Shown piece after piece: positions 1,228-60,197 of a stretch of DNA of 64,000 bases (its first letter is position 1; each line of letters begins with the position of its first letter). The notes under the pieces were generated by a model that was given only the letters and a program-made list of their open reading frames with translations, did not search any database and was not told the DNA's origin. The stretch covers positions 1 to 64,000 of the forward strand of contig PLAH01000197.1 in assembly GCA_003134045.1 (NCBI GenBank). Reading direction: 5' to 3'. The position numbers and the translations under genes were made by a program. Source of the DNA: Gammaproteobacteria bacterium. Its GTDB lineage: Bacteria; Pseudomonadota; Gammaproteobacteria; Steroidobacterales; Steroidobacteraceae.

Positions 1228-1570
1228 TTTTTTAAGGCATTTGAGCGAAACTGAAGCCTGGCGTTGTCCCCCGTAAGTGCATGGTAAGTGCACCGTCATT
1301 TCGACAGCAGAATCCATTCGACGCCTGACCAGCTGGCCGAACTTCCTCTTGTAATCTCGGCAGTGGCGGCTCCAGCATTCGGAAGTGGAGCCGTCCCCCC
1401 AACCCCCACCCGCATTCGGGGTAACATCGACCGGTCACAGCCGCTTGAGTCTCCGTGAATGATGCCAAATCCCCGACGTACCGGCTGCCGGACCCTTCCG
1501 GTGCGCCCGCGCGCGAACGAGGTTTTCGTCCCTGACATTGCCCTCACAGGGCGGTGATCAATTTGCTTGT
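1228..1570 (+). other. Non-coding stretch after tRNA-Thr with integrase arm-like repeats
   Basis: No convincing gene is seen here. At 1271-1292 two copies of GTAAGTGCA sit 3 bases apart. The same doublet occurs at 9574-9594 and 28724-28745, each just beyond sequence resembling the DNA next to the tRNA 3' end. The start of this stretch (ACCATTTTTTAAGGCATTT) also recurs, with one mismatch, at about 9528. It is best read as the arm region of an inserted element left by earlier integration. Confidence 0.5.
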
Positions 1571-1900
1571 ATGGCAAGACGTAAACGGCAGCCTCGTTGC
1601 ATCGTAATAGCTGGCCCAAACGGCGCCGGCAAGACAACTTTGCCTGCCAATATCTTCCCGACGATGCGCGAGTGGTTCACTTCGTCAATGCGGATTTGAT
1701 CGCCAGCGGTTTGTCACCGCTTCAACCCGATCTCACTGCAATCGCCGCGGGCCGCCTCGTTTTGAGGGAGATCGGATGTGGTCCGGCGCTTCAAACGGGG
1801 CTGGGAAAACTTCGAACTCGTATATCGTCCCCTGGCGGATTCCTGGGCAGTGTACGAGAATTCAGATCGTACGCCGCGACTATTGGAGCGAGGACCATGA
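1571..1900 (+). pseudogene. Zeta-toxin-like P-loop kinase, frameshifted and internally deleted
   Basis: From ATG 1571 the frame reads MARRKRQPRCIVIAGPNGAGKTT, a Walker A motif typical of zeta-toxin-like kinases, then soon hits a stop. A shifted frame continues with NADLIASGLSPLQPD, the conserved segment after the P-loop. From about 1781 the original frame returns with RRFKRGWENFELVYRPLADSW and a C-terminal YENSDRTP segment, the family's usual ending. The middle of the protein is missing. The TGA stop overlaps the ATG of the next small gene, the normal coupling in this gene pair. The gene is clearly inactive. Confidence 0.75.
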
Positions 1901-2055
1901 AAGCGAAAGGGTCAACCAAGAAACCTGAACACTTTGCGACGGGTGTTGGTCGCGCCTTACGTCGCGCCGCCAAGGACGCGCAGAAAGTCGCGCGCATGTA
2001 TGGCACGCCGCTGTACGTTTGGCAAAACGGCAAGGTCGTCGCGAAGAAGCCGTAG
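1897..2055 (+). CDS. Small basic protein, partner of zeta-like toxin
   Basis: A 52-residue basic protein whose ATG overlaps the stop of the broken zeta-like gene (ATGA). It ends MYGTPLYVWQNGKVVAKKP. A second, frameshifted homologue lies at 18924-19081, again directly after a zeta-like C-terminal remnant, with the ending MHGTPIYIVEDGKIVAKRP. The repeated pairing suggests a toxin-antitoxin partner or accessory protein, but I know no named family for it. It is intact here although the toxin is dead. Confidence 0.5.
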   Translation: MKAKGSTKKPEHFATGVGRALRRAAKDAQKVARMYGTPLYVWQNGKVVAKKP

Positions 2056-2144
2056 GCGCCAGGTTTGTCAGACTAGCGTGCCGACACTCGGGCGCGCCTA
2101 AGAGCGCGGGTTCCAAGAACGACTATTTACCCTGAGGTCATGCC

Positions 2145-3428
2145 ATGCATCGATGCTACTTCACCGTGCTAATGGGACTGATGTGTCTGGCCGCGGCCCA
2201 CACCACGTACGCCACCGGCGCGACGGCGCCGCCGCCAGCCACTGAATTGCTGCGGGAGCTGGTGGAGATCAACAGCACGCACGCGCACGGCTCCACCGAA
2301 GCGGCCAAGGCCCTGGCCGAGCACTTTCTCGCTGCTGGCTTTACGGCGCAGGATGTCGCGTTCCTGGCGCCGGCCGATCATCCGACCAAGGGCAATCTCG
2401 TCGTGCGCCTCCGCGGTCGCGGGCAGCGTCGTCCGGTTCTGTATATCGGTCATCTCGACGTCGTCGAGGCCAAGCGGGAGGACTGGAATTACGATCCGTT
2501 CAAGTTGACGGAGCATGACGGCTGGCTGTACGGCCGTGGGGTCATCGACATGAAGGGCCAGGACGTAGCCATGGCGGTCGCCCTGATGCGTCTGAAACGC
2601 GAGGGATTCCAGCCGGAGCGCGACTTGATCGTGGCGCTCACTGCTGACGAAGAGGCGGGGGACGACGCCAATGGAGTCAGCTGGCTGCTGGCAACGCATC
2701 GAGATCTCATCGATGCGCAGATCGTGATCAATCCCGACGGCGGACAATCCGATCTACCGGCTGGCCACGGCGCTAACGCGCCTTTCGCAGTATCGCTTTC
2801 CGGTTCATTTGACCGAGACGACCAAGCAGTACTTTGAGCGCCGCGCCGAACTGGAAAGTGGGAAGACGCAGGCAGACATGCGCGCGGTGGGAAGGGGGGC
2901 GCTGATCCGGCAGCCGTGGAGCGCTTGTCAGCCGTCGTCGAGACGAACATCATGCTGCGCACCACCTGCACGGCAACGCAGATCGAAGGAGGCCACGCCG
3001 AGAACGCCCTGCCGCAGCGCGCCCGAGCCACCTTGCAGTGTCGAGTCATCCCGGGAGAGTCGGCGGACTCGGTTCAAGCAGAGCTGCAGGCCGTGCTGGC
3101 CGACCCACTCGTCAAATTCAGCACGATCACGCCTGCGACCCCCAGTCCGGAATCACCTCTGGCCCCGTTTCTATTGCGCGAGGTCGAGAGCGTGGTACAC
3201 GGCCTCTGGCCCCACGTCATCGTCCTGCCGGAGATGTCCCCGGGCGCGAGCGACAGCCGCTACACGCGAGCGTTGGGCATGCCCAGTTACGGGATCGACG
3301 CCACGTTCGATGACTTGGACGACGGTCGCGCACATAGACGGGACGAGCGGATCGGAGTACAGGCCTTTGAACAGGACGTCGAGTTCACTTACCGATTGAT
3401 GAAGGTGCTCGCCCGAGGCTCCCATTAG
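2145..3428 (+). pseudogene. M20-family metallopeptidase, disrupted
   Basis: The first 200 residues are a good periplasmic M20 peptidase. A signal peptide (MHRCYFTVLMGLMCLAAAHTTYA) is followed by YIGHLDVV with a metal-binding His, GRGVIDMKGQD with the bridging Asp, and ALTADEEAGDD with the catalytic Glu pair. After NPDGGQSDL the frame is lost. A second frame resumes at about 2765 (LATALTRLSQYRFPVHLTET) and a third from about 2916 carries the C-terminal half to DDGRAHRRDER, which contains the last metal His. Part of the dimerisation region is deleted and there are at least two frameshifts, so no active enzyme is expected. Confidence 0.8.
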
Positions 3429-43398: not shown

Positions 43399-43524
43399 CA
43401 GATTATTTCCGTTTAGAAAAAAAATGGAAGTTAAGAAAAAAATTCGTGCCTTCGCCAAGAATCTATGATTCAATCGCGAGATGTTCGCAATATACAGTGT
43501 TCGTTCGGTAGGTGAACACGCTTG
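43399..43524. promoter_or_regulatory. Divergent control region between IclR and Rieske genes
   Basis: About 125 bp. TTTAGAAAAAAAATGGAAGT and TTAAGAAAAAAATTC lie near the IclR end. Two GTTCG half-sites, at about 43484 and 43499 (GTTCGCAATATACAGTGTTCG), lie near the oxygenase end. GTTCG also forms the arms of the palindrome at 52104-52122. Both are candidate regulator sites. Confidence 0.45.
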
Positions 43525-44978: not shown

Positions 44979-47330
44979 ATGAATCTACCAAAGTTTGCGC
45001 GTGCCTTGCTGATGCTGGGCATGCTGCAAGAAGCTGCGTACGGCGACTCACCCGTCAGCGTTGATTGCAGTGTCTCCTCCGCGCCGGAGCAGTGCCTTCG
45101 AACGCCGAACAGCGCGCAAGCCACGGCACTCACACCTCAAGCTAATGAACTCGAAGGGATCGTCGTCACCGCGGAAAAGCGGGCTGAAGACATCAAGGAG
45201 GTGCCGCTCAGCGTCACCGTGATCAGCGGGGCTGCGCTGGAGAGCCAAAAAATCGAGAACTACGATGATCTCGCCCGTGTGGTGCCCGGTCTATCCGTCA
45301 GCGATGCAGGGGCACCGAACCTCGCCCGGCTGACGCTGCGTGGAGTGAGCTCGGCGCAAGGCACGGCAACGGTCGGCGTCTATCTCGACGATATTTCGCT
45401 CACGATCCCGAACCTATTCTTCACCGGCGCGACCTTGCCGCAACTCTTCGACTTGCAAGATGCGGAGGTCCTGCGGGGTCCCCAGGGAACTCTCTATGGC
45501 GCGAGCTCTCTCGGTGGCACGATCCGATTCACCAGCAACGCGCCCAAGCTGAACACGTTCGAGGGCAGCGTTCGCGCCGATCTTGCGGACACGAACGCTG
45601 CCGGACTCGACCATCTCGTCCAGGCCGTCGTGAACGTTCCTCTCATCGAGGACACGATGGCGTTGCGGATCGGCGTGCAGAGCAGCGACGACGCTGGCTA
45701 TGTCAATCGCATCGGCGAGGCGGGCGCCTTCTACGCGGGAATGAACGACGACCGCACGACGTCGGCCCGTGCAACCTTGCTCATCAAACCTACGCAGGAC
45801 CTGACCATCAAGCCGGCACTCCTTTGGCAGCAGTTCTCGACCGGCGGCACCGATGCATTCGATCTTTCGCTGCCGCGCTACGAACAGCAAAAGCTGAGCG
45901 GCGAGCCTGATACGGACCGACTGTTCGTCCCCAGCCTCACGCTCGATGCAGATCTGCACCAGGCCAATTTGATTTCCGTAACCAGCTACGTCAGCCGCAC
46001 CAACGACCGTATCCAGGACGGACAGGCTTACAACAGCGGATACCTCGCCAGCGTCCTCGATCCGAGCTTTGGCTCCACCTTCGACGCGATCGCGGCGCTG
46101 CCGGGTCCCTACAGCAACCGGGTCTCATCGGAGCAATGGTCCGAAGAGTTGAGGCTTAGCTCAAAATCGATGATCGAGACCGGCCGGCCCTATGAGGGAC
46201 AGATCGGTTTCTACTACTTCGACCAGGACATCCGTACCCTCGACGATGAATATGTGACGGGGCTGGCGACAACGCTGGAGAGCGTTTTCCCCGGGCAGAC
46301 TCCGAGCGCAGTCCTCGGCGCGCCGCTGGTGAACGACGAACTCGGCTACTTTCACTATGACGACAAACAGCGCGAGACGGCGATATTTGGCGAAGCGTCT
46401 TATGAGCCCTTGTCCGGGCTGAAAGCGACTTTCGGGTTCCGGAAATCCTACGCCCATACGAGCTATGACCTGACCGAGGGCGGCTGGTTGGCCTTGGGCA
46501 TCCCGGCCGCCTATTCGAAGGGCGACACCGAGCAACCATTCACACCGAAGTTCGCGCTGTCCTATGACGTCAACGAGGACGCCACCGTGTATACCACCGC
46601 TGCCAAAGGGTTTCGGCTGGGCGGGGCCGGTGCGCCGTTGCCGTCGAGCTGCGGAATATCGCTGTCGGGCTACGGGATTGCGAACGCGACCAACAGCTAC
46701 AGCCCGGACTCGCTGTGGAGCTATGAAGGCGGCGCCAAATTCCGGACGTTCGGGAATCGCCTCAGCGTCAATGCGGACGGCTTCTACATCAATTGGAGCA
46801 ATATTCAGCAGAGTCTGTACCTCCCCTCGTGCGGCTATGCCGCCACGGTCAATGCCGGCGATGCCCGAAGCTACGGAGGCGAGATCGAGGCTACGCTGCT
46901 GGTGACGCGCGACCTCTCGTTGGGGTTCAAGGGGTCGATCGATAACGCCAAGATCACGAAGGCCGCTGCGGGCACTGGTGCGAGCGACGGGGACTGGCTG
47001 CTCGACGTTCCAAAGTACAACCTGACGGTCGATGTCGATGACCGATACCCGATCACGCCGGCGCTCGGCGGCTATTTCCATACCGATGTGGATCGCGTCG
47101 GTGCAAGCTACGGTAGTTTCGACATCACCGACACCGATTACTATCGGCCGGCATATACGACGGTCAATATGAACCTCGGAGTGCAGACGGGCCGTTACGA
47201 TCTCTCGCTCTTTGCGCGAAATCTTCTCGACGCCGATACGATCATCCAGCGGCCGGCACTGCTGTTCATCAATCAAGGGATCAGGATCCGGCCACGCACG
47301 ATCGGACTGTCCGTACGTGCCAAGTTCTAG
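44979..47330 (+). CDS. TonB-dependent receptor for the catabolic cluster
   Basis: 783 residues. A signal peptide is followed by ELEGIVVTAEKRAEDIKEVPLSV (TonB box and plug start), LTLRGVSSAQ and DAEVLRGPQGTLYGASSLGG, with the barrel ending IRPRTIGLSVRAKF. This is the sphingomonad-type receptor class found in catabolic clusters for organic compounds, many of them plant-derived or steroid-like. The next gene, a secreted hydrolase, starts one base after its stop. An AT-rich segment with CTATAA at about 44956 may be its promoter. Confidence 0.92.
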   Translation: MNLPKFARALLMLGMLQEAAYGDSPVSVDCSVSSAPEQCLRTPNSAQATALTPQANELEGIVVTAEKRAEDIKEVPLSVTVISGAALESQKIENYDDLARVVPGLSVSDAGAPNLARLTLRGVSSAQGTATVGVYLDDISLTIPNLFFTGATLPQLFDLQDAEVLRGPQGTLYGASSLGGTIRFTSNAPKLNTFEGSVRADLADTNAAGLDHLVQAVVNVPLIEDTMALRIGVQSSDDAGYVNRIGEAGAFYAGMNDDRTTSARATLLIKPTQDLTIKPALLWQQFSTGGTDAFDLSLPRYEQQKLSGEPDTDRLFVPSLTLDADLHQANLISVTSYVSRTNDRIQDGQAYNSGYLASVLDPSFGSTFDAIAALPGPYSNRVSSEQWSEELRLSSKSMIETGRPYEGQIGFYYFDQDIRTLDDEYVTGLATTLESVFPGQTPSAVLGAPLVNDELGYFHYDDKQRETAIFGEASYEPLSGLKATFGFRKSYAHTSYDLTEGGWLALGIPAAYSKGDTEQPFTPKFALSYDVNEDATVYTTAAKGFRLGGAGAPLPSSCGISLSGYGIANATNSYSPDSLWSYEGGAKFRTFGNRLSVNADGFYINWSNIQQSLYLPSCGYAATVNAGDARSYGGEIEATLLVTRDLSLGFKGSIDNAKITKAAAGTGASDGDWLLDVPKYNLTVDVDDRYPITPALGGYFHTDVDRVGASYGSFDITDTDYYRPAYTTVNMNLGVQTGRYDLSLFARNLLDADTIIQRPALLFINQGIRIRPRTIGLSVRAKF

Positions 47331-47331
47331 T

Positions 47332-48618
47332 ATGGCCGCGCGTAGCCGGATGCTGAATGTGGCCGACTTGTGCCGGGGTGCAGCCGCGTTGTTGGTCTTC
47401 ACGGCCAACGCGCAGGCCGGCTCCGTTCCACCGTCCGACCCGTGGGCCGGCGATGGTGGGGCACCCGGCTTCTACTCGTGGTCCGATCTGCTCGCCTCGC
47501 CCCCTGGGACGATGCTGCGCCATGAACCGTTGCCCGTCGCGTTCAGCCTGCCCGCCGCGGGCCGAGCCGAGCGCATCCTCTATGTCTCGAGCGACTGGAA
47601 GGACGGTCACGCCATCACTGTTTCAGGTGCGGTCTACTTCCCCATGGGAAATGCGCCGCCGGGAGGCTGGCCGATCGTGGCCTGGGCGCACGGGACGACC
47701 GGAGTGGCGGACGTTTGCGCGCCGTCGCTGCGGCCCCACTCGACCAGCGACAGTGCCTATCTGGATGCTTGGCTCGAACAGGGCTACGCCGTTGTCGCCA
47801 CCGACTATCCAGGTCTCGGCACGCCGGGCCCGCACCCCTACCTGCTGTATCGCCCGGAGGGGCTCGCCGTGCTGGACAGTATTCGCGCCGGGTTGGGGGC
47901 GTGGCCTGCGCTCCTGAAGAATCAAGCGGTCGCGGTTGGACAATCTCAGGGTGCAGGTGCGGCGCTCGGCGCGGGTTATCTCTCCCGAAGCTACGCGTCC
48001 GGCGTCAATCTGGTCGGGGTGGTCGCGACGGGGATCGTCGCCGCGGTCGCCGACGTCAAAGGTGCGCCGCAGCTTCCGCAGACCGATTTCTATGCCGATC
48101 CTGACTACTACGACGCCGCATTTGCCATGTTGCACTTCCTCGGCACGGATCGCGCCATCGATCCGTCGATCGATCCGGATAAGTATGTTTCAAAGATCGG
48201 CCGTCCGCTCCTCCACTCGGGTCTCTCGGCTTGCATGTCGGACATGGTTAACGTCGCGAAAGCAGGTGGTGTTACCGCCGCCTCGATCTACAAAAAAAGC
48301 GTCGCGGCGCTCGATCGGATGGAGACTGTTCATGGTAGTTTCCCCACGGCAGAGATACCGGTTCCCGTCTTCGTGGGCACGGGCTTGGCTGATAGCGCCG
48401 CCGGCACCACCGGCCAATACAACTTTGTCTCCGCCATGTGCCGTGCGGGCGTGACCGTGGACTGGCGATACTATCCGCACGCCACGCACACGAGCGCTGT
48501 AAACCGATCGCTGGAGCATTCGAAACCGTTTGTTGCTGCGCTGATGGCCGGTCGGCCGGTAGAAAGCCGGTGCGCCGCGCTGGTTCCTCCGGGCCCGCTG
48601 CAAACGCCTGTAGAATAG
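47332..48618 (+). CDS. Secreted lipase/alpha-beta hydrolase (LIP family)
   Basis: 428 residues from MAARSRMLNVADLCRGAAALLVFTANAQAG, a signal peptide. The start at 47332 sits one base after the receptor stop. IVAWAHGTTGVADVCAPS is the oxyanion region, AVGQSQGAGAALGA holds the nucleophile Ser, GTGLADSAAG the Asp and YPHATHTSAVN the His. The pattern fits secretory lipases of the Candida LIP type (PF03583). It probably hydrolyses an ester outside the cytoplasm before uptake by the receptor. Confidence 0.88.
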   Translation: MAARSRMLNVADLCRGAAALLVFTANAQAGSVPPSDPWAGDGGAPGFYSWSDLLASPPGTMLRHEPLPVAFSLPAAGRAERILYVSSDWKDGHAITVSGAVYFPMGNAPPGGWPIVAWAHGTTGVADVCAPSLRPHSTSDSAYLDAWLEQGYAVVATDYPGLGTPGPHPYLLYRPEGLAVLDSIRAGLGAWPALLKNQAVAVGQSQGAGAALGAGYLSRSYASGVNLVGVVATGIVAAVADVKGAPQLPQTDFYADPDYYDAAFAMLHFLGTDRAIDPSIDPDKYVSKIGRPLLHSGLSACMSDMVNVAKAGGVTAASIYKKSVAALDRMETVHGSFPTAEIPVPVFVGTGLADSAAGTTGQYNFVSAMCRAGVTVDWRYYPHATHTSAVNRSLEHSKPFVAALMAGRPVESRCAALVPPGPLQTPVE

Positions 48619-48671: not shown

Positions 48672-49448
48672 ATGGCAGTCAAGAGCGAACCCAAGGAACC
48701 TCGAGATTTCGTCGGGTCGGTCAAGCATGTGCTCGACGTATTCAAGGCATTCGACCGGAATCACCAGCAGATGACGCTATCGGCAGTCTCCGAGCGCACC
48801 GGTATGACCCGCGCAGGCGCCCGACGATATTTATTGACGCTCGAGCATCTGGGCTATATCGCCAAGGATGATCGCCTGTTCCGCCTCACGGCCAAGGTAC
48901 TCGATCTGGGTTTTGCGTTCATGGACACGATGCCGCTGACCGACCTGGCCCGGCCGTATCTACAGAGGATCACGCGCGAGACTGGCGAGATCGCGGGTCT
49001 CGCCGTGCTCGACCGCGGCGATATCATTCACTTGGTCGGCTCTACCGTGGAACGCCAGCTCGCACCCACGCTCGCGATCGGCCGGCGCTTCAATGCGCTC
49101 TATACGTCTTCGGGACGGGTGATCGTTGCCTTTCTGAATCCCGTGGGCCGCGAGGAATTGCTCAAAAGCGGCGTAATCGCTGCGATCACGCCGCATAGCC
49201 TCGCGAGCAGGGAACGCATCCGCGCGGAACTCGAGTTGGTGCAGCACCAAGGCTATGCGGTCGTCGATCAGGAAATGGAAGTGGGCATTCGCTCACTCGC
49301 CGTACCCGTGCTGGATAGAAAGGAGGCGCCGGTGGCGGCCGTCACCGTGCTCACGAACGTTGCGATGGTGACAAAGAGGCAACTCATCGAGCAGATCCTG
49401 CCCGTCGTACGGCGCATCGTCCGCGAGATCCCGACCCAGGCGCCTTGA
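48672..49448 (+). CDS. IclR-family regulator, second copy
   Basis: 258 residues. HTH: MTLSAVSERTGMTRAGARRYLLTLEHLGYI; effector domain: LTDLARPYLQRITRETGEIAGLAVLDRGDIIHL to VGIRSLAVPVLDRKEAPVAAVTVLTN. It is related to PcaR/PobR but only moderately to the regulator at 42598-43398. It lies 54 bases after the lipase-like gene and is convergent with the M24 gene. It is a good candidate for binding the palindrome at 52104-52122. Confidence 0.9.
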   Translation: MAVKSEPKEPRDFVGSVKHVLDVFKAFDRNHQQMTLSAVSERTGMTRAGARRYLLTLEHLGYIAKDDRLFRLTAKVLDLGFAFMDTMPLTDLARPYLQRITRETGEIAGLAVLDRGDIIHLVGSTVERQLAPTLAIGRRFNALYTSSGRVIVAFLNPVGREELLKSGVIAAITPHSLASRERIRAELELVQHQGYAVVDQEMEVGIRSLAVPVLDRKEAPVAAVTVLTNVAMVTKRQLIEQILPVVRRIVREIPTQAP

Positions 49449-49454
49449 GAGCCT

Positions 49455-50645
49455 CTACTCGAACAGCATTGGACTCGTGATCAGCAGCTCCGACCCGTCG
49501 CGGGTGACGATCACGCTGTTCTCGAACCCGGCCTGACCGACACCATCACGCGCGAAAAACATTTCCACACTGATGACCATGTTTTCGCGCAAGACGAACT
49601 CCGCATCCGGGCCCACGCGCACCGAAATGCTGGGCGCCTCGAAAAACAAACCATTGCCGTGGCCGTACACCGGCCACTCGCGCGTGAGATCACTTGGCTC
49701 GCCGCCGAACTGCGCCGTGAGCCGATCGCCGATTGCGACCAGCTCGTGCACCTTGACACCGGCGCGCACGGCAGCGAGCACGGTGCTCACCGCCTCGGCA
49801 TTGGCCTCGAGCAGGGCGCGCTGCGGCGGACTGGGGTGGGCGCCGCACACCACCGTGCGTCCTGGGCCGAGCCAATAGCCCTGAAACATCGGCCCGGTGA
49901 CCCACGCGCGCGCGAGTTCGTCGGCCGCGGGAGTCTGCTGGTTGTAGCCGACCACAGGATCGCTCGCCAGATGCTTCAGCTGTGCGCCGTGACTGATTGC
50001 CAGCTGATGCACGTGGCCGCCGCCGCGCGTCACCTGCCGCGCGGCCTCGCCGGCTGCTTCGGCCTGTGAACGGCCGGCGATCAGCGCCTGCGCGAGGGCC
50101 GTGATGGCAGCGCTTGCAGTCTTTCCTGCACAGCGGAAGGCCTCCAGCTCGCGCGCACTCTTTATCAGGCGCACCTCGCGCACCAGGTCATCGGCTATGA
50201 CCCACTGCACCTGCGGCGTCAGCGCCTGCAGCCGCGACCAATATTTCATCGGGATCAGGTCGGTTCCGACCAGCCCAACCTTCCGGCTGCCCGCCGCGGC
50301 AAGTCGATGCGCGACGGCTTCAAAGGTATTGGAGCAGGCCTGCACGCGATCCGTGGCGATCAGTTCGTGCCGTAGATCCTGCATGTCGGCAAACAGCTCG
50401 GGCGTTTGACCGACCTGTAACACGACGGCCGAGAACCCCTGCGGTCCGTTTCGGCCTTGTCCCGGCTGATTGCCGTAGTAATTGGCCAGGTACAGGAGGT
50501 CTGCGCAGCGATCATAGGTGCCGGCCGAACGGCTCCAGACCACCACCAGATCCAGCCCGCGTTGCTGCATGGCCTGCTGCACACGGTGCCAGCGCTGCGC
50601 ATACTCCTCGAGCGAAAAAAAGCGCGAACTCACCGTGGTGCTCAT
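49455..50645 (-). CDS. Creatinase-fold (M24) protein lacking the metal ligands
   Basis: 396 residues of the pita-bread fold. An N-terminal domain (RWHRVQQAMQQRGLDLVVVWS, DLLYLANYYG) precedes the M24 catalytic domain (VREVRLIKSARELEAFRCAG, VYGHGNGLFFEAPSISV, NMVISVEMFFA). The usual two metal Asp residues (D.G....GY..D.TRT) are missing: the segment reads VTGPMFQGYWLGPGRTVVC. Creatinase itself is metal-free in the same fold, so an amidino- or amide-hydrolase activity is more likely than a peptidase. It is translated with the MFS transporter gene (4-base overlap), suggesting the transporter brings in its substrate. Confidence 0.82.
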   Translation of the reverse strand: MSTTVSSRFFSLEEYAQRWHRVQQAMQQRGLDLVVVWSRSAGTYDRCADLLYLANYYGNQPGQGRNGPQGFSAVVLQVGQTPELFADMQDLRHELIATDRVQACSNTFEAVAHRLAAAGSRKVGLVGTDLIPMKYWSRLQALTPQVQWVIADDLVREVRLIKSARELEAFRCAGKTASAAITALAQALIAGRSQAEAAGEAARQVTRGGGHVHQLAISHGAQLKHLASDPVVGYNQQTPAADELARAWVTGPMFQGYWLGPGRTVVCGAHPSPPQRALLEANAEAVSTVLAAVRAGVKVHELVAIGDRLTAQFGGEPSDLTREWPVYGHGNGLFFEAPSISVRVGPDAEFVLRENMVISVEMFFARDGVGQAGFENSVIVTRDGSELLITSPMLFE

Positions 50646-51991
50646 GGCAACGTCGGCGAGATGAGCGCGCAGGATTGCGCGACCGGTGGGGCGGACGCAG
50701 CCGCCGCCGTGGCGAGCTCACGGGGTAGCAGTCGCGCCGCATAGACAATGAGCGCCACGCCCGCGACGGCGCCCGACAGCGTCAACGTCAGCGACACGCG
50801 CACGGCCTCGCCGCCATACCGCCCGGCAAGGGCATCGTTGAGTAGGCCAGCCAGCAGGGGACCCGCGCCGGGCCCAATGAGGTTGAGCAGCAGGTACACC
50901 AGGGCTGTCGCCTGCGCGCGTAGCCGCACCGGCATCAGCCGCTGCGTAATGGCGATCAGCGGCGCCATGTAGGCTCCCGCAAACACCACGGTCACGAAGT
51001 AAAACACGAACATGCCTGTGCCATTGGTGTGCAAAAATAGGTACATCGACGGCACCATCGCGCCTGCCGACAGAGCCGGTATCCATAGGTACCAGCGCTC
51101 ATCGTGCCTTCCCAGGCGGTCCGCGAGTACACCACCGGCCAGCGTGCCGAGGATTCCACCGACACCCTCGACGGTACCCGTCCACGCCCCCACGGCGCTG
51201 CTGCCCATGTGATAGAGGCGCATCAAATAAACCGGGGTCCAGGTCTCGAAGGCGTTGCCGGACAACGAGCACAGGCCCAAGCCCGCACCGTAGGCAAGGA
51301 AGCATTTGCACGCCAGCAGCGTCCGAACCGTGTCCGGCAGCGATTGCAGTCCTGGTTCTTCGGCCGATGCGTCCTGCTGGCCGCGCACGGGCTCGCGTAC
51401 CGTGACGCGCACGATCACGGCCATCAGCACGCCCGGCAAACCGACCAGCATCAGCGCTGAACGCCAACCGTAATGCTCGCTTGCCCAGCCACCAATCGAC
51501 AGGCCCATTGCCATTCCGATGGAGATGCCAAGTCCATAGATCGCGAATGCGGTCGCGCGTCGGTGCGACGGAAAATAATCCGCGATGAGTGAACTCGCCG
51601 CCGGACTGCAGGCCGATTCACCGAGCGCGACGCCAACGCGAGCCGCGATCAGCTGCGCGAAATTCCGTGCGAGTCCCGACACGGCCGTCATCGCACTCCA
51701 GACGACCATTCCGAGCGAGATCAGCGAGCGGCGTGAGCCTCGATCGGCCCAGCGTGCGATGGGCACGCCGGCAAGCGAGTACACGAGCGCAAAGGCGAAC
51801 CCGGACAGCAACCCCAGCTCGCCGTCCGATAATCGCAGATCCTGCTTAATCGGTTGCAAGAGGATCACCAGCACATAGCGATCCATCCAATTGAAGCTGT
51901 AGACGGCGACCAGCATCGCGAGCACGTACCAGGAGTACATGGGCTGGTGGGGCTCGGCGTTGCGGACCACGAATGGACTTGTATCTGGCAA
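50642..51991 (-). CDS. MFS transporter, spinster-like
   Basis: 449 residues, 12 membrane segments. The start is MYSWYVLAMLVAVYSFNWMDRYVL, with the MFS motif A-like loop IARWADRGSRRSLISLGM between helices 2 and 3 and GESACSPAASSLIADYFPSHRRATAFAIYGLG between 4 and 5. The pattern is that of the spinster/aromatic-acid-like subfamily that often carries organic acids in catabolic clusters. It is first in a two-gene unit with the creatinase-fold gene and divergent from the isochorismatase pair, sharing a palindromic operator candidate. Confidence 0.9.
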   Translation of the reverse strand: MPDTSPFVVRNAEPHQPMYSWYVLAMLVAVYSFNWMDRYVLVILLQPIKQDLRLSDGELGLLSGFAFALVYSLAGVPIARWADRGSRRSLISLGMVVWSAMTAVSGLARNFAQLIAARVGVALGESACSPAASSLIADYFPSHRRATAFAIYGLGISIGMAMGLSIGGWASEHYGWRSALMLVGLPGVLMAVIVRVTVREPVRGQQDASAEEPGLQSLPDTVRTLLACKCFLAYGAGLGLCSLSGNAFETWTPVYLMRLYHMGSSAVGAWTGTVEGVGGILGTLAGGVLADRLGRHDERWYLWIPALSAGAMVPSMYLFLHTNGTGMFVFYFVTVVFAGAYMAPLIAITQRLMPVRLRAQATALVYLLLNLIGPGAGPLLAGLLNDALAGRYGGEAVRVSLTLTLSGAVAGVALIVYAARLLPRELATAAAASAPPVAQSCALISPTLP

Positions 51992-52103: not shown

Positions 52104-52122
52104 TAGTTCGTATTACGAACTA
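52104..52122 (+). promoter_or_regulatory. 19-bp palindromic operator candidate
   Basis: TAGTTCGTATTACGAACTA is a perfect inverted repeat with one central base. It lies between the MFS gene (start 51991, minus) and the isochorismatase-like gene (start 52150, plus), where a shared regulator such as the IclR protein at 48672-49448 could control both. Confidence 0.6.
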
Positions 52123-52149: not shown

Positions 52150-52671
52150 ATGAACTCTCCAACGCACTCAATATCCGCCAGACCCCGCCGCTCGGTAATC
52201 GAGGGTAACCCTGCGTTGCTGGTGCTGGGCGGGGCGGATGTATATCGACCATTTGCACCGCTGCTGAACGCCGCACGCAGCCTATCCATCCCCGTCATCT
52301 TTGCCACTGTCGACGCTGAGACCTGCGGACCGACTGGGTCGGCGGTGCTTGCCGGCGAGGGGAGGATCCATCCTCCCTGCCTGTCTGCATTTCTCGGCAC
52401 GCCGTTATCACTGTTGCTGGCTCGACTGAATGCGCAGACGCTACTGTTGGCAGGCGGCCGAACCAGTGTGGAAGTCCACTATTCATTCGTCGATGCGCAC
52501 CAGAACGACTTTTTTTGCCGGTTGGCGGAGGACTGCATGGCGGGTGCGTCACCGGCGGCCCACGAGGCGGCTTTGAAAGCCATGGAATATTTGCAGACCG
52601 GCGCCCGCCAGAGCAGCACGACGCTAGTGGCTGCCCTGCAAGCTTTCGAAGCCCGGCGCTCGAGCAAATGA
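52150..52671 (+). CDS. Isochorismatase-fold protein lacking catalytic residues
   Basis: 173 residues from MNSPTHSISARP. The fold is that of the cysteine-hydrolase family: PALLVLGGADVYRPF stands where active members have VIDVQ, and GGRTSVEVHYSFVDAHQNDFFCRLAEDCMAGAS stands where they have GGFTDVCVH. The catalytic Asp is replaced (LGGAD) and the catalytic Cys is Glu. It is encoded directly before an active paralogue with a 4-base overlap. It looks like a structural or regulatory pseudoenzyme subunit rather than decay, because the frame is intact and codons look normal. Confidence 0.8.
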   Translation: MNSPTHSISARPRRSVIEGNPALLVLGGADVYRPFAPLLNAARSLSIPVIFATVDAETCGPTGSAVLAGEGRIHPPCLSAFLGTPLSLLLARLNAQTLLLAGGRTSVEVHYSFVDAHQNDFFCRLAEDCMAGASPAAHEAALKAMEYLQTGARQSSTTLVAALQAFEARRSSK

Positions 52672-53312
52672 GCGCAATGGCGAAGATCGTGACCGGTGCC
52701 CACACCAGCAGCCTCTTGCCCGGCAAGCTGGTGCTGCTGGTCATCGATGTGCAGGGAGAGCTTACGGGTACGCGCTACGACGTTGCTCGGGATTTTCCGA
52801 TGCCGAACTTCAATGAGTACATGCGGCGTATTCCGGCGGTGATCGCGGCTGCACGCGCCAGGAGCGTGCCAATCATCTACATGCAAGAGGTGCATCATCC
52901 AAGTCTGATCGACTTCGGCCGTGAACTGGATGGATTCGAACGCGTGCACTGCCTCGAAAATGCACCGGACACCGCAATTTCCCCGGAAGTGCAGTTGCGC
53001 CCGGAAAGCTTTCACATACGTAAAAGACGCTATTCGTCCTTTTTTTGCACCGAGCTGGATATCTATCTGCGCGGCCTCGAGGCGGCGACGCTGCTGATGG
53101 TCGGTGGTTTCACCGACGTCTGCGTGCACTACACTTTCGCCGACGCCCATCAGCGCGGTTACGTTTGCCGCGTCGTTGAAGACTGCGTCGCGGGCTCCTC
53201 ATTTGAGGCGCATCAAACAGCACTGCAGGCCATGGAGTTCCTGCAGCCTGGCAGCCGTTGCCGACGGGATGAAGTCATCGCGCAGATGGCTGTCATAGCG
53301 CCGCCACGCTGA
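52668..53312 (+). CDS. Isochorismatase-family cysteine hydrolase
   Basis: 214 residues from MSAMAKIVTGAHTSS. All three catalytic residues are visible: Asp in LVLLVIDVQGEL, Lys in HIRKRRYSSFFCTEL and Cys in GGFTDVCVHYTF. The family includes N-carbamoylsarcosine amidase, ureidoacrylate amidase, nicotinamidase and isochorismatase. Among known members, the nearby hydantoinase genes make an N-carbamoyl-amino-acid amidase the most sensible guess. The ATG overlaps the stop of the catalytically dead paralogue, so both subunits are made together. Confidence 0.88.
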   Translation: MSAMAKIVTGAHTSSLLPGKLVLLVIDVQGELTGTRYDVARDFPMPNFNEYMRRIPAVIAAARARSVPIIYMQEVHHPSLIDFGRELDGFERVHCLENAPDTAISPEVQLRPESFHIRKRRYSSFFCTELDIYLRGLEAATLLMVGGFTDVCVHYTFADAHQRGYVCRVVEDCVAGSSFEAHQTALQAMEFLQPGSRCRRDEVIAQMAVIAPPR

Positions 53313-53979
53313 CGCCGCGAGCGGGGTCGGTACGGCAATGTCTGCTCAACGGGATCGGGGGCGAGTGAAAACTTCCTCGCGCTGATAAGGGTCCTCAGAC
53401 GCAGTTCATCATTCCGAGGGTGCGGTGAAAAAGAAGAAAAAAAGCACCGCAATGTAGCAATTCGACGGCCCCCTGGTTCCAAGACGTCGGTGCTTGATGC
53501 TTTCACGGAAAGTGACCTGGAGGAGTGGGGCCCAACGTTCGGTCGATGTTCAAGCGCCACCATCTTCCAAAACATTCGGCATCAACTTAATCGTGCCGGC
53601 TGCCCATCCCTCATGTATTGACACGGCCTCGACCCACTCCAGACATCGACCTTTCCGCGCGAGCGCTCGACAACGATGCCGCTGCGACACTGGAAGTCAT
53701 CCGCAAGATCTCGGCAATAGCTCTCGATGATGGTCTTATCTTCGATTCCGCCAGCGCTACTGCTGAGGCTATCCGGGAAGATGAGAACCACAGCGGAGTT
53801 CGCGTTACGTTAGGCGGAACGCTGTTTTTCCACTCATGCTCCCCATGTGCTCTCTCTCTTTCGCTGGCGACTCTTCGCGGATACGTGTCAGTACTATCGC
53901 ATTTTTGTGGCGCGCATGGCAGCATACAACCCGGCGTAAAAAACCCTGCCGACCCAGCAACTTCTCGCGTGGTACCTCC
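53313..53979 (+). pseudogene. Intergenic DNA with AbiEii-type nucleotidyltransferase fragment (53618-53830)
   Basis: TGCGGTG (53421-53427) and CACCGCA (53445-53451) form a weak stem after the hydrolase gene, possibly a terminator. From 53618 a frame reads PTPDIDLSARALDND, VIRKISAIALDDGLIFD and AIREDENHSGVRVTLGGTL. This is the central part of AbiEii/AbiGii nucleotidyltransferase toxins (DIDL, DGL.FD, IRED, GVRV). The N-terminal part and the rest are missing and no AbiEi gene is present. It is a fragment of a lost toxin-antitoxin locus. Confidence 0.55.
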
Positions 53980-54462
53980 ATGTCGATGCCGACTTACCTT
54001 GTTGCTCTTCGCGAGGCCTATGACGGTGAGATGGAGGGCGAGGCGGTATACCGGCGTCTGTCTGGGCTTAGTGAAGACTCGGATCAACGCAAGAAGTTCG
54101 CGACGATCGCGGATGTCGAGCACCGCACTCACCGTATCCTGCACGCGGCCGCGTCGCGCCTCGGCATCGAACCCGCCATGGAAGGAATCGGAGCGAAGGC
54201 TGCGCGCCGCGCCGAGGAGCTAAACCAACTCACATGGCCGGAGTTCGTCGCCAAGGCGACCGTGGATTGGCCGCCGTACATCGAGCGTTTCGAGACGGTG
54301 GAGCGCATGGCCCCAGCCGCCGATGCGCTCGCAGCTCGCCAGTTAGTCGAGCACGAACGCGCGTTAGTGGAATTTGTCCGCTTGGAGGAGCAGCACTCAG
54401 ATGAATCCTTGCGGCCGCTGCAAGAGTTTTTGGCCGACACTCGTGGTGAGCCGACCCAATGA
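53980..54462 (+). CDS. Ferritin-like small helical protein
   Basis: 160 residues from MSMPTYLVALREAYDGEMEGEAVYRRL; an ATG two codons later is equally possible. The order of helices with ALREAYDGEMEGEAVYRRL, FATIADVEHRTHRIL and RQLVEHERALVEFVRLEEQ suggests a four-helix rubrerythrin/ferritin-like fold. Glu and Glu-x-x-His residues (E14/E18, E45-His) could bind metal. It is encoded just before the CoA-transferase with a 34-base gap. It may be a redox or quinone-handling partner for the oxygenases, but this is inference. Confidence 0.65.
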   Translation: MSMPTYLVALREAYDGEMEGEAVYRRLSGLSEDSDQRKKFATIADVEHRTHRILHAAASRLGIEPAMEGIGAKAARRAEELNQLTWPEFVAKATVDWPPYIERFETVERMAPAADALAARQLVEHERALVEFVRLEEQHSDESLRPLQEFLADTRGEPTQ

Positions 54463-59046: not shown

Positions 59047-59093
59047 ACCGGTTTCTTTGCAAATCCACCAAATGGGAACAATCGAGCACAATT

Positions 59094-59128
59094 TTCGTAA
59101 TGCGTGGGTCAGGGGTTCGAATCCTCTT
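59094..59128 (+). repeat. att copy: 35-bp anticodon-loop to T-arm segment, right edge
   Basis: TTCGTAATGCG...AATCCTCTT matches tRNA positions 1183-1217, then diverges (CGACGGAATCC in place of TGCGGCACCA). It is the right-most copy. Everything from the tRNA to here may be inserted DNA. Confidence 0.85.
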
Positions 59129-59143
59129 CGACGGAATCCAGCG

Positions 59144-59340
59144 ATGGCGATCACCTCGCTGAATCAGTATCTCGATGTGGAATGGCTGGAATATGCCTTT
59201 GAGAGCACACGCAAGGACGGCGCGGTCGGAGTCGATGGTCAGACGGCGGAGAGTTATGCGGCGAATCTGCGGCAGAACTTATCGTCGCTGATCGAGCGGC
59301 TCAAATCGGGCCGTTATCGTGCGCCGCCGGTGCGGCGTCA
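59144..59340 (+). pseudogene. Group II intron reverse transcriptase, N-terminal fragment
   Basis: From ATG 59144 the frame reads SLNQYLDVEWLEYAFESTRKDGAVGVDGQTAESY and NLRQNLSSLIERLKSGRYRAPPVRR. This is the start of the RT domain of group II intron maturases (GVDG, RLKSG.Y.APPVRRV). It then leaves the family and no later RT motif (YADD) is present. The piece sits between the right-most att copy and the next minus-strand gene. Confidence 0.7.
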
Positions 59341-59360
59341 CTGCTATTCGCAGGCACCCG

Positions 59361-60197
59361 CTACGGCCGGTCGAAGTCGGTACCGAGAGTCACCGATCTC
59401 CATTGATCGATGTCTTCCGCGAAGCGGGCGTACATCTCCTGGATGCGCGCGAGCGCGTCGGACCCGAGCAGCAGGTGCAGTGGCGGTTTCGCCGCGCTGA
59501 CAGCCTCGATGATGGCCGCCGCGCCGCGCACGGGATCCCCGATCTGCTTTCCGGCCATGGTCGCGAGGCGCGCGATATTCGCGCCCGCGGTGGAAGCATA
59601 GTCATCGATGCCGGCGCGGCTGGCCCGGATCGAGTGATCCGACAGGAAGTCCGTCCGAAATGCGCCGGGCTCGACCAGAGTGACCTTGATCCCTAAGGGC
59701 GAAACCTCCTGCGCCAATGATTGCGACAGTCCTTCGACCGCAAATTTCGCGGCGGCATAAAACCCCGCTCCGGCTCCGGGCGCCAGACCCGCGATCGAGG
59801 TGATATTGACGATGTGACCGGATCTTTGCGAACGCAGGTGCGGAAGCACCGCCTGGATGACGCGCCTGGTGCCGTGAAAGTTGACGTCGAACAGGTGTGT
59901 TATTTCATCCTCGCTGGCTTCCTCGACCGAACCCAGCAATCCATAGCCCGCATTGTTGACGACCACGTCCAGCCGCCCATGCAGCATCCATGCCTGCTCG
60001 ACGATCTGGCCCACGGCCTGCGCATCCGTGATCTCCAGGGGCAGCAGATGCAGCCTCCCCTTTCCCTGCCCAATGGCGGCGTTGCCATCCCGCGTCGTGC
60101 CGACGACGGTCTCGCCCTTCGCGAGGACCGCCTCGGTCAGCGCCTTGCCGAAACCGCGTGCGACGCCGGTGATGAACCATACTCTTGATGTAGTCAT
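59361..60197 (-). CDS. Short-chain oxidoreductase
   Basis: 278 residues from MTTSRVWFITGVARGFGKAL; an ATG at 60227 is possible. SDR features are TGVARGFGKAL (NADP loop), VVVNNAGYGLLG, NITSIAGLAPGAGAGFYAAAKFAVEG with Ser, Tyr and Lys, and VTLVEPGAFRTDF. The extended C-terminus (HLLLGSDALARIQEMYARFAEDIDQW) is common in SDRs beside AraC/YqhC-type regulators. It is complete and lies 10 bases downstream of the aldo/keto reductase, in the same operon. Confidence 0.9.
   Translation of the reverse strand: MTTSRVWFITGVARGFGKALTEAVLAKGETVVGTTRDGNAAIGQGKGRLHLLPLEITDAQAVGQIVEQAWMLHGRLDVVVNNAGYGLLGSVEEASEDEITHLFDVNFHGTRRVIQAVLPHLRSQRSGHIVNITSIAGLAPGAGAGFYAAAKFAVEGLSQSLAQEVSPLGIKVTLVEPGAFRTDFLSDHSIRASRAGIDDYASTAGANIARLATMAGKQIGDPVRGAAAIIEAVSAAKPPLHLLLGSDALARIQEMYARFAEDIDQWRSVTLGTDFDRP

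Follow-up and report, generated by a model that had tools for sequence, protein, structure and literature searches.

Isochorismatase-like proteins form a large family of bacterial hydrolases whose members are treated as homo-oligomers, and a dead helper subunit would, going by the open-licence papers that were searched, be new there. The locus described here, found in a window (the whole stretch of DNA that was analysed) of 64,000 nucleotides, raises the question of whether such a subunit may exist, as two genes of this family overlap and the product of the first lacks the residues needed for catalysis. An earlier note on this DNA had described the two as an overlapping dead/active pair and had read the first as a pseudoenzyme that is a partner of the second. 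Here, we ask what the first gene has lost and kept, whether it is maintained or decaying and, if it is maintained, in which role.

The overlapping pair and its subfamily

Gene 1 (P0001; 52150..52671, + strand) has an ATG start and an open frame and encodes a catalytically dead isochorismatase-like protein of 173 aa, while gene 2 (P0002; 52668..53312, + strand), likewise starting with ATG, encodes an isochorismatase-like cysteine hydrolase of 214 aa with the residues D27, K119, C152 and Q193. Both frames are open as the earlier note had it, and stop and start share the four bases ATGA (52668..52671, + strand), an overlap from which translational coupling would be expected. With 69.2 bits for gene 1 and 125.3 bits for gene 2, both lie above the curated PF00857 cut-off of 27, and the proteins are 49% identical over 85 C-terminal residues. 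By sequence, they are isochorismatase-like hydrolases from one subfamily. The genome has four PF00857 genes, of which these two are the only neighbours, and none other of 143 sampled genomes of the class (86 of them with PF00857) has two separate PF00857 genes so near to each other, the nearest same-strand pair elsewhere in this sample being about 1.7 kb apart. That the two genes lie so close together is not due to chance.

Gene 2 looks like a working hydrolase with an intact triad: the Asp, Lys and Cys that had been pointed out in it (D27, K119 and C152) fall on columns conserved across the family. Its AlphaFold2 model (52 sequences; pLDDT 86.2, pTM 0.85) matches NicF/RutB with a Z of 21.5, and its closest sequence in the PDB is the biuret hydrolase 6xjm. 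An assignment as BiuH (NF050097) was rejected at 63.6 bits versus an equivalog cut-off of 370, and scores for RutB and similar equivalogs were also far below their cut-offs. Gene 2 probably encodes an amide or ureide hydrolase.

Plasmids searched by tblastn, some 85,000 species genomes that were scanned and relatives that were searched yielded at least 90 other members of the subfamily, from groups that include Alphaproteobacteria, Acidimicrobiales, Chloroflexota and Gammaproteobacteria, and the alignment of 92 sequences sets 90 of them beside gene 1 and gene 2. The genome scan used two patterns, one of which demanded the Cys, and dead orthologues without the EYLQ motif could escape it. Among the matches listed, the further members keep every catalytic residue that their sequence covers. 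Of the 92 aligned rows, 89 have the Asp, gene 2 among them, and the three others are gene 1 and two rows that are truncated at the N-terminus and do not reach this column; both Lys and Cys are present in 91 rows, with gene 1 as the sole exception.

The same pair was not recovered from other genomes: no second dead/active pair occurs among the matches listed (90 members), in close relatives or in the syntenic Caulobacteraceae clusters, and the relatives and clusters hold only active genes. The best matches in the class (G335 and G439) are single active-type genes. In G439 (L040, minus strand) an active-type member is split over two frames, possibly by a frameshift or as a real decaying copy. 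Tandem PF00857 neighbours in the relatives G001 and G066 and in the locus L048 were considered and rejected as instances of the same pair, since they are biuret-hydrolase-like and, in the parts that were read, both copies have the full triad. Adjacent, distinct biuret-hydrolase-like pairs, with both members active by sequence, were seen at L020 6835-8067, L021 5408-7228 and L048 near 1251-2730 (minus strand); the L020 pair adjoins a urease alpha subunit gene, and its two members are joined by unknown bases. The pair being unique in the searched data, conservation is no guide to whether gene 1 is maintained. Absence of the first gene from relatives, which the earlier note had counted against a partnership, is literally what was found, and a lineage-specific gain explains this absence equally well.

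Loss and retention in gene 1

In the 92-sequence alignment, gene 1 shows a gap at the Asp column, where the segment is deleted, Pro at the Lys column (K75P) and Glu at the Cys column (C108E), the last two being Lys and Cys in all 91 other sequences. All three members of the Asp-Lys-Cys triad are missing, so that gene 1 does not qualify as an enzyme of the family. The earlier note had described the loss of Asp and Cys, which the alignment bears out; the loss of the Lys adds to that description. Additionally, the Asp adjoining the Cys position has become Ser (D106S), deletions of about 40 aa have removed most of the lid regions that follow the Asp and that precede the Lys, and ten near-invariant columns are deleted outright. 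The lost lid and Lys strand map to residues 53-78 of gene 1 (52306..52383, + strand).

The AlphaFold2 model of gene 1 (53 sequences; pLDDT 81.3, pTM 0.77) is confident except for the first residues and residues 56-77, the former site of the lid and the Lys strand, and its best fold match is the maleamate amidase 4l07 (Z 17.5, rmsd 2.6 over 146 residues). Gene 1 is thus predicted to have the isochorismatase core fold. That it keeps frame and fold, as had been stated, applies fully to the open frame and, for the fold, to the core only, residues 56-77 being predicted as disordered.

The losses are unevenly distributed. Of 86 near-invariant columns (at least 90% conserved), 25 lie in the lid/Asp/Lys region, where gene 1 keeps 2 residues and has 23 deleted or changed, and 61 lie elsewhere, where it keeps 50 (a split derived from the listed changes); gene 2 keeps 70 of all 86. 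The C-terminal half has 46 residues conserved at 95%, of which gene 1 keeps 38 and gene 2 keeps 39, and the mean identity to the family in this half is 62% and 63%, respectively. The nucleophile codons were altered by several bases each (Cys to Glu by three, Asp to Ser by two), and the other changes in this half are mostly mild (I>L, Y>F, V>L, V>M, S>A), with the exception of E>S at residue 87.

Of the rival explanations, the one that survives best is that gene 1 is a decaying duplicate, i.e. the relic of a tandem duplication, or a second copy, whose in-frame deletions and substitutions leave the frame open by luck and whose product, if one is made, has no function. It finds support in the absence of gene 1 from every relative examined, in its large deletions and in its very long branch. 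In the full-length tree this branch lies away from gene 2, from which we do not claim separate origins, as this is a long-branch placement and constraining the two genes to be sisters gives a higher likelihood on the C-terminal half. For that half the two genes are not rejected as sisters (p-AU 0.869), which makes a local duplication possible, and local duplication followed by loss of catalysis would be compatible with the sequences. Further, gene 1 shows the weakest codon preference among the genes compared (0.048 vs 0.145-0.262) and a codon-position GC pattern flatter than in its neighbours, and some relaxation of constraint is therefore likely.

However, decay would have to account for a loss concentrated in the lid and active site of a protein whose scaffold is as conserved as that of gene 2, and for 173 codons without stop or frameshift. 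It would also have to account for the multi-base changes in the nucleophile codons: among 20,000 runs that simulated uniform decay without stops, changing as many codons as are changed in gene 1 and taking the family consensus as ancestor, which is a weakness of the simulation, 0.035% gave as many multi-base codons as gene 1 has. Uniform decay of the whole gene is thus disfavoured and appears to fit the sequence poorly, and we consider decay altogether a rather unlikely explanation. The earlier reading of the first gene as a pseudoenzyme, with selective loss of the active site and retention of the scaffold, stands as more likely than decay, and the uneven constraint suggests that gene 1 may be maintained under purifying selection.

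The glutamine helix and the proposed heteromer

A possible reason for keeping such a scaffold is offered by characterised relatives. In TrtA, whose nucleophile is Cys162, Gln202 reaches across from the other subunit to complete the active site, the helices alpha6 and alpha7 make most contacts of the dimer, the substrate-contacting residues include the Asp, a lid Glu and the Lys, and the counterpart of Gln202 in BiuH is Gln215 (PMC7948467). The corresponding helix of gene 1 (residues 135-149, ending in Q149; 52552..52596, + strand), aligned with TrtA Q202 and BiuH Q215, keeps 10 of 10 near-invariant residues, and its Gln is identical in all 92 sequences. The subfamily Gln, which lies 41 residues past the Cys position, aligns with the Gln of MVTMQ in Rhodococcus BiuH, 40 past the Cys (counted by inspection). 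Gene 2 keeps its own Gln and differs at two conserved positions of this helix (A to T and Y to F at alignment columns 195 and 202), numbers too small to carry weight. We infer, by analogy, that the interface is equivalent to that of TrtA and BiuH, structures that are about a quarter identical in sequence to this pair.

In the mechanism that we propose, gene 1 and gene 2 would be made from one coupled message and would form a heteromer. Gene 1 would be a pseudoenzyme subunit kept for its scaffold; it lacks a triad and a lid but retains Q149 with its helix and the C-terminal helices and, turning over no substrate itself, would donate its Gln to the live site of gene 2 or help to shape that site, while gene 2 would work in an inducible cluster for uptake and catabolism. 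That gene 1 is a maintained pseudo-subunit dimerising with gene 2, possibly lending its Gln, has, in our judgement, an even chance of being correct. The narrower form, in which the heterodimer is obligate, each dimer has a single working site and the dead subunit inserts its Gln there, is more tentative and on balance doubtful. The heteromer, drawn from one genome, is plausible and the best working model, and the C-terminal residues of gene 1 may be kept for folding alone and not for pairing.

Selective loss of catalysis with the fold kept would also suit a maintained pseudoenzyme that acts independently of gene 2, for example as a homo-oligomeric binding protein or a regulator such as a substrate sensor, and gene 1 is the first gene after a regulator-like palindrome. 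Yet most TrtA-type substrate contacts fall in the lost region (PMC7948467), leaving little of a pocket, and the overlap with a paralogue favours a joint function, so that we regard this role as improbable. The idea that gene 1 is instead a negative or buffering partner that enters gene 2 oligomers and lowers or tunes their activity follows the same heteromer logic, and a dead subunit at 1:1 would be expected to halve the competent sites, but it is the least probable reading, since the best-kept element is the Q149 helix, which supports the neighbour's site and which an inhibitor would be free to lose.

The preferred reading, a pseudo-subunit paired with gene 2, resembles known systems in part. 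With BiuH and TrtA the pair shares the PF00857 fold, the Asp-Lys-Cys triad (in gene 2) and the invariant Gln after the penultimate helix (PMC7948467), whereas the known enzymes are homodimers or homotetramers of active subunits and the triad is absent from gene 1. Trypanosomes provide well-documented cases of a dead paralogue completing its live partner (PMC5201418, PMC3663545); in the trypanosomatid AdoMetDC/prozyme and deoxyhypusine synthase the dead paralogue completes or activates the live partner, as is proposed here, although these eukaryotic proteins have unrelated folds and are experimentally proven, while the case of gene 1 and gene 2 is inferred. Among the open-licence papers that were searched, nothing relevant turned up on pseudoenzymes or heteromers of the isochorismatase family. 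Should the model be true, it would represent a split of labour built on the family's trans-acting Gln and would warn against annotating gene 1 as a hydrolase or dismissing it as a pseudogene. As a residue of the family that crosses the subunit interface is known, the heteromer idea is testable with one point mutation.

Genomic context and regulation

Upstream of the pair on the + strand are genes for a TonB-dependent receptor (44979..47330; PF00593, PF07715), a secretory-lipase-like hydrolase (47212..48618; PF03583), the true start of which is probably downstream of the first TTG of the ORF, and an IclR-family regulator of the PcaR/PcaU/PobR type (48672..49448), which scores 243.6 bits against TIGR02431, below the curated cut-off of 284.75. 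An M24/creatinase-like pita-bread protein (49455..50645; PF00557, PF01321) of a divergent operon and an MFS transporter (50642..51991; PF07690, 190.6 bits) divergent from the pair are encoded on the - strand. By eye, the M24 protein appears to be without the two Asp metal ligands of M24 peptidases and has YWLGPGRT at the expected metal site; it may be a creatinase-type non-metallo enzyme and would then be a second neighbour departing from the catalytic set of its family.

About 30 bp upstream of gene 1 lies GTTCGTATTACGAAC (52106..52120, no strand assigned), a near-perfect palindrome and the sole exact match to GTTCG-N5-CGNAC in the window, which resembles the PcaR operator GTTCGATAATCGCAC (PMC12455658). 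The nearby IclR protein is a plausible candidate for binding this palindrome and regulating the pair. A scan for sigma-70 promoters gave no match. Inverted repeats of the form GTTC-N7-GAAC occur at 52106-52120 and at 43503-43517, each just upstream of a + strand gene, the latter preceding a Rieske oxygenase gene that is divergent from a second IclR gene.

Related clusters are found in Caulobacteraceae, with identities of 44-46% for the TonB-dependent receptor, 53-54% for the lipase, 48% for the MFS transporter and 50% for the IclR protein (one genome), not every member being present in every genome. These clusters have a single active isochorismatase, 47-50% identical to gene 2, and G847, of the same class as the Caulobacteraceae genomes, has two active copies flanking its TonB gene. 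As the Caulobacteraceae clusters have active copies only, the dead copy has, judging from these sequences, been added in this lineage to a cluster that otherwise recurs.

Some Caulobacteraceae clusters also include DUF1989 proteins and allophanate hydrolase, both known from guanidine and ureide breakdown (PMC9800807), and the recurring cluster is apparently a catabolic one of ureide or guanidine type. The adjoining DUF1989 and allophanate hydrolase genes recall the CgdAB carboxyguanidine deiminase/AtzF system and hint at ureide-type substrates for active subfamily members (PMC9800807), although the isochorismatase pair is of another fold; homologues of CgdAB/AtzF-type genes were not found in the window. 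The recurring combination of an active isochorismatase with DUF1989 and/or allophanate hydrolase, lipase, TonB and MFS genes was seen at L141 4162-8075 and in L090, L139 and L140.

Two further ORFs of the window were noted by eye. At 53836-54462 an ORF of 208 aa, with no Pfam/NCBIfam match, has a C-terminal part of helical, ferritin/rubrerythrin-like appearance, and an ORF at 59057-59500, apparently truncated, begins much like the N-terminal end of group II intron reverse transcriptases.
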